A stretch of 64,000 nucleotides of DNA, taken from contig AP026128.1 of NCBI GenBank assembly GCA_030295235.1, forward strand, positions 310,001-374,000, written 5' to 3'. The position numbers and the translations under genes were made by a program. This document shows, piece after piece, positions 13,797-21,569 of this stretch; within the stretch, counting starts at the first letter, position 1, and every line of letters begins with the position of its first letter. The notes below the pieces were generated by a model. The model worked only from the letters and a program-made list of their open reading frames with translations. It did no database searches and was not told where the DNA came from. The DNA comes from Fistulifera solaris (lineage: Eukaryota > Bacillariophyta > Bacillariophyceae > Naviculales > Stauroneidaceae).

Positions 13797-14250
13797 GGTT
13801 GATGTTGTGATTGCTGTTGTTTTGCGTTTCGCGCTTGTGGATGCTTATTTTATTGCGGGCTTATGAATTTATGACGACTATGCGGTTCGCAATCTTATGA
13901 GTGAATTGGTGTTGCGTAATTGGCACGTGGCCTTTGATCACGCTTCAAAGAATGGCCGTCAAAATGAAAGTCTTTTGCGAACTTGTCAAGACGTAAGTAT
14001 CTTGCGGGCAATAATGAGGAACACTTTTTCAAAATAAATGCAAAAAAGGGATTTTACTGAAACACGACACACAAAGTTTCAACGGAATATATGACATATT
14101 CGATTGTACATGACAAAGGAGAGGGCATAAATTCGGATTTCCGACTCCTTTTCGATAATAACGCCCCGAGATTTATGCTCAGTTAGACGGAGTACACAAA
14201 ACGTCATGACTTCAATCTCCACCATCGAAATCCAAAAAATTACTATCAGA
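13797..14250. other. Intergenic region
   Basis: 454 bp between two minus-strand genes: the promoter of the secreted protein and the 3' region of the transglutaminase-like gene. I see no feature. Confidence 0.4.
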
Positions 14251-15269
14251 TCAGAGTACTAATTGCGCGCACTGGCCGCATGTCTGTTGGTAATAAGCCG
14301 TGCGATTCTCGGCTGGAATAGCCTCATTCCCCTGTTCCCATGCCAAAGGGAAAAAAGTCCCATTGATGGCGCCTTCCAATCGAGCCGCAAACGCTTGGGT
14401 CCCATTCCATCGGCTGGCGTGACAGAACCACCGCTCACAAGGATCCCGTTCGATCCGATCGGCGTCTTCGTCGTCGGAGGCCGTTGGTTCTAAAAATGCC
14501 ATCCATCGTGCCAGACTTCAATCCAGTTGTGATTGCCATGTTCTGGAACGTTATTCCACGCGGCAGTCCCGGCCACGCGAGCGGGAACACCCACCGCCCG
14601 CAAAGCACTCGCGAATAGAATGGATAATCCCGTGCAACTGCCGTATCCATAGACCAAAACGGACATGGGATCAAAGATCAGTGGCGTCGATCCGGCCACA
14701 AAGGTAATGGAAGATGTTCCCGGGGCCGCCAATCGTTGCCACATGTACGTGTTCAGAATAAAAACGGCTTGTGTCAAAGAAGTAGTCTCCTCTTGAATGA
14801 GTGACGAGAGTTTTTGAAACAAATAAGGTCGCCAGTTACTCCGTGCTTCATTGAGATGCAAATAATTCAGGACGTATTCTTCCCATATTTCCCGGGGCAA
14901 TTCATCGGTGTAACGAAACAAGACTTTGGCTTGTAACGCGTATTCAATCGTCGGTCCAACCAATCCATCCGCGAGACCGTCCACCGCATTCGAATCGTTG
15001 GAAGTAAAACCCATGGTTTCACGAAACGGCCGATCGAACGTAAGAATGTGTTCTTCCAAATAGTCGTACGCATCCCGTCGAGCATGTTCAATCGTTTGCC
15101 ATTCGCAATATTCTTGTTGTTGTTGTAAATGACGTTCTTGGCGGGTCATCGTGACAGGACGTGGCCAAGCCACGTGAGTGGAATTGCTGCGGCAGCCGAC
15201 GATCGCCGGCACGAGCGGAGCGACTAAGAAAATGATAAATTGCGACACAAGTCCGAGTCGAATTATCAT
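14251..15269 (-). CDS. Secreted transglutaminase-like (papain-fold) protein
   Basis: About 340 residues with an N-terminal hydrophobic leader (LVSQFIIFLVAPLVPAIVG) and a C-terminal transglutaminase-like domain. The catalytic Cys is in GYGSCTGLS, the His in NHNWIEVW, and the Asp probably in LEPTASDDED. The order and spacing fit the Cys-His-Asp triad of the transglutaminase/PNGase superfamily, whose members act as proteases, amidases or crosslinkers. The frame breaks at the A5 run 14492-14496 (T5 in the gene), right after GWHF. One extra T gives GWHFLEP, the usual continuation, so this is probably a sequence error. Several cysteines in the tail (CERWFC, CGQC) suggest disulfides in an extracellular protein. 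Confidence 0.8.
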
Positions 15270-15770
15270 TGCTCTTTTTATAAAAGGAAGCGAGTTCCTT
15301 GATGCTTTCGTCGTAATTCCTATGGATCGTTGATTGCGTTTCTTTGGTGTCCGTTTTTCTTCGCATGGTCGACCATTTTCGTTTTTGTTGTTCTGTTTTT
15401 TGAATGAGGCGCGGCAAAAACTGCGTACATTACAACCTATGGTGTATGAATGATGACGTCATAGTGTTGTCCGAGCGGTTCGATCACAAGACTGGATGCA
15501 GCGGCGCGCCAAAAAGAGACATTTTCGCACGGCGATGACGCGACGAGTGACCCGCACGCATTGCCTTCCAATCGAGCCTCGCATATGCGGGAAAACTATA
15601 GTATCCTGAAACACCACAATCTTCTTCTTTTCCTTTATCATTACTTACTAACGCTCTGAAGAGACGGATTCAACGTCGATGATGAGCTCTCCGACGCCAA
15701 AAAACGCGACCTGCCGACCACCACACTGTCGTCGTCCAGCAAAAGCCCAAAACACCCACATTGCAGAGCA
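15270..15770. other. Divergent intergenic region
   Basis: 501 bp between the divergent starts of the transglutaminase-like and SNARE-ankyrin genes, containing the E2F-like site listed separately. No other gene or RNA seen. Confidence 0.4.
15503..15513 (-). promoter_or_regulatory. E2F-like site (TTTGGCGC)
   Basis: The complement reads TTTGGCGCGCC, an exact match to the E2F/DP consensus TTTSSCGC inside a GGCGCGCC palindrome. It lies about 260 bp before the SNARE-ankyrin start and about 235 bp before the transglutaminase start. A similar palindrome is at 9194. Regulatory use is only inferred. Confidence 0.3.
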
Positions 15771-17615
15771 ATGTCATTGACTCTACAAGGGTTGTTACAC
15801 GCCATGGAGACAAACAGGGAAGGAACGGACGCTGCCTTGGCGTTCCGTGTCGAAAGATGTCAATCGTTGTGGAATCAAGTTGCCGACGAATTGCTGCAGG
15901 TCGATCCAGAGCGGCATCAATCGTTGCACCAACGCGTCCAAAACGTCTGTCAGGACAGTCAGCCACCTTCCATTCCTCCGACCATTCAACGAATCTTTTT
16001 GGACTCATCAAGCAACACTACTCCGGCGATGGAAAGTGAACCGAACGATGGGAACGATGATAGTCAAGAGAACGACATTTTGGAGCCGCCAACCCGACCT
16101 TTCGTCGTCAATGTGGCCGAAATGCAAAAACAACAACAGGAACAAATGCAAGAAGCTGTCTCGCAAATGGCGTCGCAACTCAAACGAGAAACGGCCCGCA
16201 TCCATTCGACGTTGCAACAACAGACCGATCAACTGGACGAAATGGAAGATCTGGTGACCGAAAATGCCACGAAAGTCACGGATTTGACGAAAAATGTCCA
16301 AGAGCATGTTGCGAAAGGATGGAGAAAAACAATGGGGACATGGACCTTGTTGTTCACCGTGGCGGGAGCGTTTCTGTTCTGTATGGTGACGATATCCATG
16401 GTACCCAAACGAGAAGGGACGTGTTTGTTCTTTTGTGCGAAAACAGAGGATCAGTATTGTCGGATCTTACCGGGAGGACGTCAGGAATGTATACCGGTCG
16501 CGGAAATGAATGTTGGAAAACAACAAGCCAGCGAATCTTCGCTGGATGGTGAGTGCATGGAAAATCATAAGGAAACAAATCAGCGAGACGCACGATCGGC
16601 TGTCAATGTATTCGCCGAAGAGGCGGCCATCGATGAGATTGATCCAAATATTCCTTTTTACAATGGTCGACCCTTTTCGGGGAAAGAAATACGTAAAGCT
16701 GCCGCGAGTGGTGATTTGCGAGCCTTGTCGGCCATGTTAGAGATGAAGCCAGAATTCATAGATGCACAAGATTCGAATGGATGGTCGGCTTTGCATCTGG
16801 CGGCTCGATCCGGTCATGAAGAGGTTGTTCTGTACTTGTTAGAGCATGGATGTAATGCGGCATTGGAAACCAGCAACGGACGCAGTGCACTCGATATTGT
16901 CTACGGGAAGCATGGAGCGGATCATCCCGTAGCCAAATTGCTCGAGGAAGTGTTCGAAAGTCGTTCCACTCCTCCGCGGGAAACAGGCAAACAGCCACCA
17001 GCGGGGGACGACATTCGGAGCGCGGCCCAGACTGGAAATTTATCGCAACTGATGGAAATGCTCTTGGCTGCCCCCGATCTCATCGATGCACCAGATGATA
17101 ACGGCTGGGCGGCAATTCATCTTGCGGCGCGCGCGGGTCATATACCCGTCATTCAGTATTTGATCGAAGCAGGATGCCAAACACAAATCAAAACGAAGAG
17201 CGGTGAATCTGCACTATCGATCGCTCTTCGAGCGCTGGGCAGTGATCATGCTGTTGTGCACCTGCTAGCGGCACGTCCGGACGCCGAACCAATGGTCCAG
17301 GGACGAATTTTTACCGAGCATGATGTTCGTCTCGCTGCGCAGCAAGGGAATTTAGAGTTATTGAAAGAGATGGGTGCTATCAAGCGAGAATGGCTAGAAA
17401 GTCAAGATGAAAATAAATGGGCCGCAATTCATCAGGCAGCCCGCAGTGGGCACATGAAGGTTGTTGAGTATCTCCTTCAACAAAGATGTGATCCAAACAC
17501 GCTAACGAAAAGTGGCAGCACGGCGTTGGATATTGCTAGAAATCGTCATGGAGACGATCATCCTGTCGTCACCTTACTTATGGAGAGCCAACGATCCCAA
17601 CATACGGAATTGTGA
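15771..17615 (+). CDS. Use1-like SNARE with C-terminal ankyrin repeats
   Basis: 614 residues in one uninterrupted frame. Residues 1-65 form a helical N-domain. Residues 110-182 are a heptad-rich coiled coil that lines up with the Qc-SNARE motif of Use1, including the block ending VQEHVAKGW before the membrane (human USE1 has RLEQHTQKSVNW). Residues 190-211 are a single membrane span. Use1 acts in Golgi-to-ER retrograde fusion. In the family the chain ends just after the span; here about 400 residues follow, so they would lie in the ER lumen. They hold a Cys-rich linker (216-262) and three long ankyrin modules (about 303-605), each with a WSALHLAARSGH-type helix and an acidic DDHPV-type end. 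No targeting peptide is visible at the N-terminus. The alternative is a plain tail-anchored ankyrin protein with an unrelated coiled coil. Confidence 0.75.
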   Translation: MSLTLQGLLHAMETNREGTDAALAFRVERCQSLWNQVADELLQVDPERHQSLHQRVQNVCQDSQPPSIPPTIQRIFLDSSSNTTPAMESEPNDGNDDSQENDILEPPTRPFVVNVAEMQKQQQEQMQEAVSQMASQLKRETARIHSTLQQQTDQLDEMEDLVTENATKVTDLTKNVQEHVAKGWRKTMGTWTLLFTVAGAFLFCMVTISMVPKREGTCLFFCAKTEDQYCRILPGGRQECIPVAEMNVGKQQASESSLDGECMENHKETNQRDARSAVNVFAEEAAIDEIDPNIPFYNGRPFSGKEIRKAAASGDLRALSAMLEMKPEFIDAQDSNGWSALHLAARSGHEEVVLYLLEHGCNAALETSNGRSALDIVYGKHGADHPVAKLLEEVFESRSTPPRETGKQPPAGDDIRSAAQTGNLSQLMEMLLAAPDLIDAPDDNGWAAIHLAARAGHIPVIQYLIEAGCQTQIKTKSGESALSIALRALGSDHAVVHLLAARPDAEPMVQGRIFTEHDVRLAAQQGNLELLKEMGAIKREWLESQDENKWAAIHQAARSGHMKVVEYLLQQRCDPNTLTKSGSTALDIARNRHGDDHPVVTLLMESQRSQHTEL

Positions 17616-17735
17616 ATGCAGTTTGTGATTAAGAGTTAATGTGACATATTAATAAACGGAACGGATATCAAGGGACAAGGTACTTGCAATTTCCGGCACT
17701 ACAAAAATAATACTCGTTGTTCATTTCCCAACGCG

Positions 17736-18224
17736 CTACGCGGTGGACAATGTTGTCACTTTGCGTTGTTCCGCGTTCCATCGGCGTCCCCCAACAACTT
17801 TGCCGGCGAGTAGCTTTTGCGCCACATTACACCGCAGGATTAAAATGTTGCCGTCGAGTTTATTGGGATGCAATAGTGTGTCCGCATTCTTTCTCCATAC
17901 GACCCAACGTCGACACGCCGGATGTCCGGGGGGTCCCGATCGAGCTCGATCTTGACCTTTCGTTTCTTTGTAGGCACATTTGAGGCAGCACGGTGGCTGT
18001 GCGTATCCCAACCGCGCAAAGAAGCACATTTCGACAAAAAGTTCCTGGAGTTGCTGTTCGTCAAAATCAACATCGCCATTCCATAAATCTTCTGGTTCCA
18101 GGATGCCATGTGACTTGTCACCGGCTCTAGCCGTATTCTTTGTTTCTTCATCTGAAAACTCGATTGGTAGCGTTTCGATTTGGTTGCTTCCCCAACTGAC
18201 ACGGCCTTTTTTTCGTCCACTCAT
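17736..18224 (-). CDS. Conserved protein with Cys motifs, function unknown
   Basis: 162 residues, no intron. The N-terminus is basic (MSGRKKGRV). The core has MCFFARLGYAQPPCCLKCAY and later WVVWRKNADTLLHPNKLDGN, with four cysteines and a further Cys in a CRRW motif that could bind a metal. I recognise this layout as a conserved stramenopile protein but know no function. The start is the first ATG. It lies only 46 bp upstream of the end of the next minus-strand gene. No signal peptide or membrane span is visible. Confidence 0.65.
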   Translation of the reverse strand: MSGRKKGRVSWGSNQIETLPIEFSDEETKNTARAGDKSHGILEPEDLWNGDVDFDEQQLQELFVEMCFFARLGYAQPPCCLKCAYKETKGQDRARSGPPGHPACRRWVVWRKNADTLLHPNKLDGNILILRCNVAQKLLAGKVVGGRRWNAEQRKVTTLSTA

Positions 18225-18270
18225 GGTTGTTGTTTCGGCCGTGATTTCGCGATCGAATACTTTCCTTGTC

Positions 18271-18985
18271 TTACTGCGCTGGGTAAGGTCGTCCAGATAC
18301 GTACTGATTCTTTCTACGTAAAAAGTCGGATCTGTATCGTTTCAGAAGCTGTTGATAATGTTGGTAATCTTGTTGAGTTAGACGTCTTTGTTTTCGAAAA
18401 TCGTCCAGTCGCTGAAATAAGGCTAATACTTTCTGTTGATGCAGTAAACGGGGGTCTTCCTTCCAATTGGGTCGACTGGTGGTTGGTGTTTCGACGTGAA
18501 TGGGATCGCTTTGCTGATCTCCTGTGCCTTCCACCGGGTAATTTGCTTTTTTGAATGGAGGCCGACTTTACTGACTTGGAAGAAAACGACCTGGCAGTTG
18601 GTAGACGATAGATTGTTGATTTCGGCGTTCCTTCGGTGTATGAATGATCGGATGAACTGTTGTCACTGTCAAAACTGGATAGAACGTAAAGGTCCGATAT
18701 ATCCGAATAACTCTGGGCTGATTCTTCCGAATCAAAGGAAGATGCTAAAGTGCTGCTGTCTTGGATGACGAGTTCAAATCCGTCGGGACTTGGACGATGC
18801 ACAAAGGATTTATGGCGCACTTCCTTTGGCTCTTCTTTCGATGCCGCTTCTTCTTCAAGACTTTCCTCGACTTCTTGCAATCTCCGCTCTTTTCTCCTGA
18901 ACGGAACAATTATTCTTTTTACCAATGAACGACCTTCATGGACATCAAACGAGGGATGATGATTATTGCGGGTTTTCCAGATCAT
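18271..18985 (-). CDS. Ser-rich, charged protein of unknown function
   Basis: About 238 residues. The first part is Ser/Asp-rich (SSFDSDNSSSDHSYTEG) after a basic and then acidic helix. The C-terminal third is a predicted coiled coil (HQQKVLALFQRLDDF, then QQLLKRYRSDFL). The frame breaks at the T6 run 18547-18552 (A6 in the gene): the upstream frame runs on to a later stop, while the coiled-coil frame is open from the break to a stop at 18271. I treat the two as one gene because the coiled-coil frame lacks a plausible start of its own. No known domain. The join is less certain than in the conserved genes. Confidence 0.5.
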
Positions 18986-19650
18986 GTCGTTCCTTTTTTT
19001 TCAAACGGTCAATGCGAGCAAGGACAACCTTTCTCCATTTCCGTTGGCGATGCTGAAATACGAGATGGTAGCTTTCTATATAAGCTTTCTACAAGAATGT
19101 ATACTTTCCAAGAAAAATTTCAAATTTTCTATAGATGAATTTGAACGGACAATTTTCACGTTTCGCTAATATGGGTCAAAAGACCGTTCAATCTTGTGAA
19201 CGGATTTCATTTTCATACAAATGTGATCCGAATAGGGAAGTGGTTCGCATAATACTCGAATACATAGGCCCTTCCATCGTCGCTCTTCCATCGCGAACAG
19301 CGATGTTCGTCTAAGTGTCTTTCAGTATTAGGAACGACTTCTTGGTGGGAGAATGGAATGGTTTTTCAAAAGGGCACACCCGACGGCGTCCCCATCATTT
19401 GGAAACAGCTTCAACAGAAGAAAGGCAACAAACACCGTCAACATGATTGTTGCCTCGCAGAAATCGCCTATGAAAGCTTCTCCAGTGCGGCTGGATGATG
19501 GAAAAGCATTCACGTTCGATGGAGGACACAATGCCGGAGGCTTTCCTCTGTCGGCCGAGTCGGATGTACGTATATAAGTTTGTTTACGAAAAGCAGGTCA
19601 CTCAAGTTCATCAATCTAATGTTCTGTATTCTTTCATCAAGGACTCGAAA
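18986..19650. other. Divergent intergenic region
   Basis: About 660 bp between divergent genes. The frame of the next gene is open further upstream, to an ATG at 19495, but that stretch looks non-coding and includes promoter-like AT-rich sequence near 19565. No other feature seen. Confidence 0.35.
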
Positions 19651-21399
19651 ATGGACAAGCGTCAGGTTGACGTCGGTCCCAATCTATCCGACAATTTGAG
19701 CGGTCTTTCGGCGGAAGAGAGAGAAGGCAGGTGGGTCGAAGATTGGGATCGCCAACAGGAACGAGACGCTCCTCCTCCCATTGCTCCAGCGGCCAGTGAT
19801 GCTTTGGAGAAAATTCGGGAAATGCGTCAAATTTTGGAGGCCGATCCGACGGTGAAAGAATCCTTGTCCAAGACGGAGAGTAGTATGACGCTATCGAAGA
19901 ATGACTCCTCCAATCCGGAGCTGTATCCGTATGTCTTTCGCAAAACATCGAGCAACGCTTTAGATGCCTTGCGCGCGGTACGAATGCAACTGGAAGCGAA
20001 CAAAGATGTCGCCAAGGCCGTCTCCGAAACTATGCATGGGACGTCTCCTCGGAAGGGTTTACCCCTCGTTCTCCTGCCAAACATTCGGCAGACCGCTCCT
20101 TTCCAAAAAGTAACGGCACTGATGTCTTGCAATCTTTACCGGAATCTTTGCCTGAATCGGCGCGTGACAAGGAGCATGACCAAGATGGTGAGGAAGAGGA
20201 GATTGCGGACGATCGAAGTGTTGCATCTCTGGTGGGTCCACCGCCACCTCCTCCGCCCATTGAACGTTCCGAAGGAAGCGTTCTCAAGGAAAAGCAGTCT
20301 GGTGCGCGTTCCGACTGAGCCCATGTCGCCATGTGCGGGTGGAAGTACTATTCGTGACGAGGAAAGGATCGCGAGTCCGCGTAATGTCGAAGAGCAAGGC
20401 ACTCTTGACCCTGAATTTGATGTATGCCCTCGGTCGAGTAAGCCAGGAAGAGGAAGACTATCGATTAAACGGATGTTCAAAAAGGGTGCGGCGAAACCGG
20501 AACCAGAGGCGCGGTTGTTATCTCCGGATCCTACTCCCAGTGAAGAGGGCAATCATCAACAATTGAACGCGGCGGACGACGAAGATCTTCAAGATCCATG
20601 TGTAGAGGTTGTTCTGAAAGGATATGTCGCTCCGGAAGAGATTGAAGAAACCAGCCATTCGAAAATCCGTCGCCGCGGCGTCAAAAGTCTTTTCAAGAAG
20701 TTGGGAAGGAAAAACAGGGCTGAAGCGCCTGACCCGAGTCCTGAGACGGTCAGTACAGAAGAAGAACCTACGAGTAGTGAAGTGGACAACGGAGAAAGTT
20801 CCCAGCGCCTTTTCTCGTCAGATTCTTTTATTAATGAGGGAGCGGTGAACATGGACAATCATAGGGTAGATGCTGTAGATGATGACGACTCTGTTGGACC
20901 AGCTCCTTATGGCGAATCCTCTGGTGTTGTGCATTGCAACAAGGTTGTAGAAGCCGACGAAGATCCTTTCCAAGAAATCATCAACAGACACAGGCCGACA
21001 TTTGCCCCTGCCGACCCGGAAACGATTGACACCTTCGACATTGTTAATGACCTGGATTTTGAATCTCGTAGGCTGGACATTGATGTTAGAGAAATCGAAC
21101 GTAAGATGAAGCAAAAACGTGCCACTGATGCGTCAAGTTCATCTTCGCGGGTTCCTGTGGCGTTGGCCGGAACAGCAGGTAAGAAAGTTGGGCATATGTC
21201 AGGTACAGCCAGTGTGAAATCATCTCGAACGACCAAGAACAGAACTAGCAAAAACCGTTCTACTCCCAACATGAAGCCGAAAAAGCCTGCGATCTACTAT
21301 AGCGGTAAACTTGCAGGAAATGCAGGAGCGACACAGAGAGGAGACCGAGGAAAGTATAGAGATGACAACATGTCGTTCACACGATGGCCTCAAGAATAA
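19651..21399 (+). CDS. Low-complexity acidic/proline-rich protein, function unknown
   Basis: About 580 residues of mostly disordered sequence. Two similar segments near the N-terminus (SDALEKIREMRQILEADPTV and SNALDALRAVRMQLEANKDV) form a short helical repeat. A polyproline run follows an acidic block (about 20190-20260), and paired basic motifs recur (RLSIKRMFKKG and GVKSLFKKLGRK). Between about 20040 and 20312 the natural frame is shifted: one extra G at the G3 run 20038-20040 and one base fewer near 20311 give a consistent Ser/Glu-rich segment with PPPPPPP, whereas the unshifted reading is atypical. I chose ATG 19651 (MDKRQVDVGPNL) over the in-frame ATG at 19495. No family recognised. Confidence 0.6.
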   Translation: MDKRQVDVGPNLSDNLSGLSAEEREGRWVEDWDRQQERDAPPPIAPAASDALEKIREMRQILEADPTVKESLSKTESSMTLSKNDSSNPELYPYVFRKTSSNALDALRAVRMQLEANKDVAKAVSETMHGTSPRKGLPLVLLPNIRQTAPFQKVTALMSCNLYRNLCLNRRVTRSMTKMVRKRRLRTIEVLHLWWVHRHLLRPLNVPKEAFSRKSSLVRVPTEPMSPCAGGSTIRDEERIASPRNVEEQGTLDPEFDVCPRSSKPGRGRLSIKRMFKKGAAKPEPEARLLSPDPTPSEEGNHQQLNAADDEDLQDPCVEVVLKGYVAPEEIEETSHSKIRRRGVKSLFKKLGRKNRAEAPDPSPETVSTEEEPTSSEVDNGESSQRLFSSDSFINEGAVNMDNHRVDAVDDDDSVGPAPYGESSGVVHCNKVVEADEDPFQEIINRHRPTFAPADPETIDTFDIVNDLDFESRRLDIDVREIERKMKQKRATDASSSSSRVPVALAGTAGKKVGHMSGTASVKSSRTTKNRTSKNRSTPNMKPKKPAIYYSGKLAGNAGATQRGDRGKYRDDNMSFTRWPQE

Positions 21400-21569
21400 G
21401 CCCAAATACTCGACCTATGAACAAAAGCGAAATACCATGCATAGTCCTTACCTTCCCTATAGGGTGCAATAACTTCCTTCACAGATGAATAACTGGTCCT
21501 TAGTAAAATCAAATCAGTTAAACTATCACAATGTTACGTTGAGCATCAATGTATCTACTCCCTAAACAT

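Follow-up and report, generated by a model that had tools for sequence, protein, structure and literature searches.

Use1 proteins are tail-anchored SNAREs in which the chain ends at or shortly after the membrane span, and the Use1/Slt1 family (PF09753) combines a heptad region with the single span that follows it. To our knowledge, no ankyrin repeats occur in yeast Sec20, a member of another SNARE family that is said, going by the title of a 1992 paper of Sweet and Pelham, to be sorted by the HDEL system. TANGO1, a further point of comparison, is a protein in its own right rather than a SNARE. According to excerpts of one report (PMC4709264), TANGO1 takes part in cargo export together with three ER SNAREs, STX18, BNIP1 and USE1, and in excerpts of one phylogeny K/HDEL retrieval is listed as a signature of ER-localised SNAREs (PMC6143360). 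The gene of Fistulifera solaris described here appears to resemble known systems in that an ER SNARE bears a retrieval tail, and to differ from them in joining a Use1-like family to ankyrin modules. In the open-licence literature, no description was found of a SNARE or Use1 protein with lumenal ankyrins.

The gene lies on the forward strand at 15771..17615 of the window, meaning the whole 64,000-nucleotide stretch that was analysed, and consists of 614 codons plus a stop in the open reading frame listing, with no internal stops. This single frame encodes a Use1-like SNARE region, a membrane span, a linker, three ankyrin modules and a C-terminal HTEL. In the organism's own genome (51.7 Mb in 61 contigs), where the locus is found on contig C13, a search with the Use1 model revealed a second copy on contig C14 with the same layout and syntenic surroundings, the two contigs sharing one block of 84% identity that spans window positions 13951-21511. 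Matches to several queries were paired by contig (for instance C13/C14, C17/C18 and C23/C24), which fits the account of F. solaris, in excerpts of its literature, as an allopolyploid diatom with 42 homoeologous chromosome pairs (PMC5935921). Separately, the 43 kb contig C52 carries two loci (L015 and L024) that resemble near copies of C24 loci (L013 and L028); this resemblance in sequence suggests that C52 is a duplicated or misplaced contig relative to C24.

The C13 and C14 copies were compared over seven segments, with residues 1-11, residues 396-404 and gapped codons omitted. In the gene's own frame, dN/dS is 0.25 for residues 12-110, 0.08 for the SNARE and pre-span region, 0.29 for the span (few sites), 0.15 for the linker (segment 211-305), and 0.25, 0.22 and 0.21 for ankyrin modules 1, 2 and 3, whereas the two alternative frames gave computable values for 12 of 14 segment comparisons, each at 0.76 or above. 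Because dN/dS is low in the gene's own frame only, the linker and the ankyrin modules are coding in the same frame. The linker (16404..16679, forward strand), which carries five cysteines at residues 218, 222, 230, 240 and 262, also contains the donor-like hexamer GTGAGT at 16549, as might be expected if an intron or a transcript end separated the SNARE and ankyrin parts and the fusion were an artefact of the gene model. This explanation is very improbable, given the one frame, the linker dN/dS and the hexamer GCGAGT in the C14 copy, where the donor-like site is not kept. The coding constraint in one frame accordingly led us to reject an artefact of frameshift or intron at this junction. The original prediction had excluded a frameshift there, and the uninterrupted frame, coding across linker and ankyrins between copies, bears it out. 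The fused gene is probably a genuine variant, new in form.

Two further observations come from the comparison of copies. Unusual conservation of the linker at the DNA level was suspected and discounted, as identity over 100-base intervals is 92-97% at 16400-16699 versus 94-95% in several intervals of neighbouring genes; synonymous divergence is lower in the linker (dS 0.18) than in the N-terminal part (dS 0.54). In addition, because one base near the first ATG is missing from the C14 copy, between that ATG and the equivalent of Met12 (15804..15806, forward strand), which is in frame in C14 also, the true start of the Use1-like gene may be Met12 rather than the first ATG.

The assignment of the N-terminal part to a Use1-like SNARE, made originally from family resemblance, is supported by the order of its elements and by the best-matching family, at a score below Pfam's curated threshold. 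Residues 9-206 (15795..16388, forward strand) match positions 39-238 of the 243 in the Pfam Use1 model, and, ankyrin families aside, no other Pfam match of the protein comes close to Use1 (E 3.8e-7 versus 0.0021 for the next), with no SNARE family other than Use1 listed at E up to 1. The score is 30.4 bits for the full-length protein, 33.7 bits for residues 1-210 alone and 33.1 bits in the genome search, all below the curated cut-off of 38.3 bits. The profile match anticipated near residues 120-190 is likewise present but sub-threshold, and does not clearly contradict the assignment. SNARE-like heptad layers -7 to +8 extend over residues 127-179 (16149..16307, forward strand), with Q151 (16221-16223) at the centre layer; when 3/4 heptad registers were scored, this register was the best that stays clear of the span. 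A polar centre layer and heptads shortly before one span, as in Use1 SNAREs, are found here in the predicted succession. The AlphaFold2 model, made from a four-row alignment, shows one long helix over residues 115-194, partly at low confidence, and at full length has a mean pLDDT of 58 and a pTM of 0.30, with low confidence in the linker.

Alternatively, the N-terminal part may not be Use1 or may not form a working SNARE, being instead a Qc SNARE, either Syp7-like or specific to the lineage, or some other membrane protein with a coiled coil; the C-terminal part would still be lumenal. The sub-threshold score and weak Pfam matches to several unrelated coiled-coil families are in keeping with this, as are published accounts: excerpts of one phylogeny confine Use1 to animals and fungi and group it with Syp7, found in plants and protists (PMC6143360), and excerpts of a study of Toxoplasma mention that no clear Use1 was found (PMC8406237). 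A search of PDB sequences with residues 1-210 returned no Use1 chain, and weak matches to unrelated, mostly coiled-coil proteins. Set against this alternative are the lead of Use1 over all other non-ankyrin families, the coverage of most of its model, and the absence of any further Use1 match in the organism's own genome, where the Use1 model and a query of SNARE plus linker both matched at the C13 and C14 loci only. Departure from Use1 is thus rather improbable, and if the genome has a Use1 visible to these searches, the gene under study would be that Use1. The SNARE plus linker query had no relatives in a prokaryotic contig collection, a result uninformative for other diatoms. The protein was also considered as the genome's own Sec20 and rejected, as PF03908 does not appear among its Pfam matches at E values of 1 or below and its locus is absent from the six own-genome Sec20 matches. 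The best of these, on C24 and C23, are over the cut-off (34.1 bits for the C23 protein), and the genome has a separate short Sec20 of its own.

A single membrane span is placed by hydropathy at about residues 191-211 (16341..16403, forward strand), where the 19-residue Kyte-Doolittle mean reaches a lone peak of 2.33 at residues 193-211, the next best value elsewhere being 1.19. Unlike the short tail of Use1 proteins, the chain beyond this span continues for 403 residues, in agreement with the roughly 400 originally noted. An N-L-S site, a potential glycosylation site, is present in this part at residue 423. Basic residues flank the span equally, with three among the 15 residues on each side, and the charge rule gives no orientation. 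At its end, the chain carries HTEL (17601..17612, forward strand), a putative KDEL-like ER-retrieval tail that likewise ends the C14 copy. This tetrapeptide presumably falls outside the PROSITE KDEL pattern. Excerpts on human CES2 attribute retrieval and ER retention to the HTEL tail of that enzyme (PMC2266714), and elsewhere, again in excerpts, CES2 with HTEL was undetected in culture medium in which the form without HTEL was abundant (PMC4624787). Within diatoms, antibodies with a C-terminal DDEL were ER-retained in Phaeodactylum tricornutum and those without it were secreted, according to an excerpted report (PMC4593558), and in F. solaris the KDEL-receptor family is over its cut-off at four loci. 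Four thioredoxin-family loci sampled for the usual ER tail were uninformative, as two ended otherwise and two ran beyond the stretch. Since HTEL closes both copies and relatives of the ankyrin modules occur on secretory-type proteins, the ankyrin part is most likely lumenal. The lumenal placement first proposed on the grounds of tail-anchored topology has in this way gained two lines of evidence, while topology itself continues to be judged from sequence features.

Three ankyrin modules, at 16680..16964, 17004..17270 and 17316..17600 of the forward strand, are delimited by Pfam, module alignment and the AlphaFold2 model. Ank_2 scores 123.8 bits against a cut-off of 27.3, one of five ankyrin families over their cut-offs, which confirms the three modules originally noted past the span. 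In the model, ankyrin helices begin at residue 304, with pLDDT mostly 60-88 across the block, and each module of about 90-100 residues forms approximately three helix pairs. All 50 listed fold-search matches of the full-length model are ankyrin-type chains or titles, a result silent on the SNARE part. All three modules keep the residues that are invariant in this module type. Each module also has one cysteine at an equivalent position (residues 361, 469 and 573; codons 16851, 17175 and 17487); these cysteines are kept in the C14 copy and absent from that position in all six aligned modules of other proteins. Neither the whole protein nor the module alignment had relatives among viral contigs, which is uninformative for other diatoms.

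Within the genome, the ankyrin part had at least 37 matches, three of them to the two SNARE copies. On inspection, 20 of the 37 listed belong to one module type carried by oxygenase-like or short secreted-looking proteins, and every one of the 15 best-scoring non-self matches in the list is among these 20. Of the 14 matches to ankyrins of other types, those at L022, L026, L027/L054, L029, L050 and L053 were read and those at L021, L023, L030, L031 and L032 were read in part, with the matches on C27, at C13:521505 and at C14:508526 left unfetched. Kinship was also assessed with two profiles, both applied to the fetched loci and the window. By best domain, a profile of the SNARE modules gave 58-68 bits to complete modules of the same type and 36-37 bits to the related pair L051 and L052, versus at most 36.8 bits to other-type ankyrins; the order by whole protein differs, as the many-repeat L021 and L032 reach 91 and 69 bits. 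In the reverse direction, a profile built without the SNARE modules gave these 67-78 bits and other-type ankyrins no more than 42.1 bits.

The final EL of the SNARE recurs in most carrier proteins whose end is visible. In 15 of the 20 carriers the end is visible after the module, and 13 of these end in EL, including HIEL in L018, with one EF (L016) and one EH (L011); as homoeologue pairs and near copies are among these 15, they are not independent. In the other carriers (L019, L020, L024, L025 and L028) the frame stops short of the end of the module, and a frame in L049, possibly representing the final L020 exon, has SEK at its end. As a control, an EL end occurs in none of 40 window frames of at least 200 residues, many of them spurious, and in 11 of 104 frames of at least 250 residues from the window and loci, namely the SNARE, nine carriers and the other-type ankyrin L030. 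In most carriers the end reads GEL or PEL, and we know of no role as retrieval signals for YGEL, EGEL, NGEL or GPEL.

Two kinds of protein carry the module type. One is a prolyl-hydroxylase-fold family (L039, L040, L041, L043, L045, L048 and L051) with one C-terminal ankyrin module and mostly -EL ends, clustered on C17 and C18 and also found elsewhere. Its members have the same module type as the SNARE and in many cases a G.DHP-like motif, but are enzyme-like, with one module and no span seen past the start, whereas the SNARE is a membrane protein with three. In the proteins scanned, the catalytic domain is unrecognised by Pfam, and an NCBIfam scan of the catalytic part gave nothing. A model of this domain (mean pLDDT 62) matches the fold of prolyl 4-hydroxylases and other 2-oxoglutarate oxygenases, with a best E of 7.4e-9 and modest TM-scores of about 0.4-0.6, while its profile found only two weak, unrelated matches among PDB sequences (E 0.04 and 0.6). 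A PHROGs match to a family named ferrochelatase (E 5.8e-19) was also obtained, and that name is doubted because the fold search favours prolyl hydroxylases and 2-oxoglutarate oxygenases. The second kind is short, with a single module and a GPEL end, as in L041:3129-3608, for which Pfam lists ankyrin families only, and in the similar L013 and L015; a hydrophobic start is seen in the short proteins of L041 and L013, giving them a secreted look. By eye, signal-peptide-like starts are present in L045, L043, L041 and L048, several others (e.g., L006-L010) starting in unseen exons. Such a start is also seen in L021 (C3, frame starting at 910, reverse strand), a many-repeat ankyrin of another type, suggesting that secretory ankyrins in this genome are not confined to the module type of the SNARE. 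In the open-licence literature, no description was found of lumenal ankyrins joined to prolyl-hydroxylase-type enzymes.

Taken with the features above, these relatives lead us to favour, as somewhat more likely than not, a Use1-type Q-SNARE of the ER that has taken on a type II membrane topology and whose lumenal ankyrins bind a client of the hydroxylase-like system. The N-terminal 190 residues would be cytosolic and zip with other ER SNAREs, a single span would cross the membrane of the ER, and the three ankyrin modules, within a stretch of about 400 residues, would lie in the lumen. Should the SNARE leak to the Golgi, its HTEL would be recognised by the KDEL-receptor route. We infer client binding because the same module type otherwise occurs on prolyl-hydroxylase-fold or short secreted-looking proteins; the partner of the modules would be an enzyme or client of the prolyl-hydroxylase-like system in the lumen, and the client-bound ankyrin part would hold the fusion machinery nearby.

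The ankyrin part could instead be a passenger whose HTEL keeps the SNARE ER-resident, while it senses or binds nothing specific. Precedent exists in the retrieval tail of yeast Sec20, an ER SNARE, and the C14 copy may itself have lost the ankyrin part through frameshift. In that copy (L002 and L055), the ankyrin part has two uncompensated one-base losses, each within or next to a short run of G, and as assembled its first frame stops soon after the linker, cutting off the ankyrin part. These frameshifts may be assembly errors, or the ankyrin part may be lost or decaying in one homoeologue. However, a mere spacer would not need the dN/dS of 0.21-0.25 found in all three modules, nor their invariant residues, and the passenger role is possible but unlikely. 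Returning to client binding, a stronger form is a cargo-gated SNARE, in which the ankyrins bind prolyl-hydroxylase-type enzymes or hydroxylated cell-wall clients and the state of the ER lumen positions or gates the fusion SNARE; this we consider decidedly speculative. TANGO1 offers a functional analogy only, as cargo binding by the SNARE studied here is presumed.

SNAREs are normally viewed as cytosolic machines with little beyond the membrane, and a lumenal ankyrin tail is unusual for a fusion protein. If the proposed arrangement is true, a conserved lumenal recognition domain together with its own retrieval tail would form a one-protein handle linking ER contents and fusion, in organisms whose secreted cell-wall proteins are elaborate. 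The gene is also a pointer to ankyrin modules of the secretory pathway, in a fold mostly regarded as cytosolic. Were the SNARE cargo-gated, a single chain would combine roles that in animals fall to two proteins, TANGO1 and USE1.
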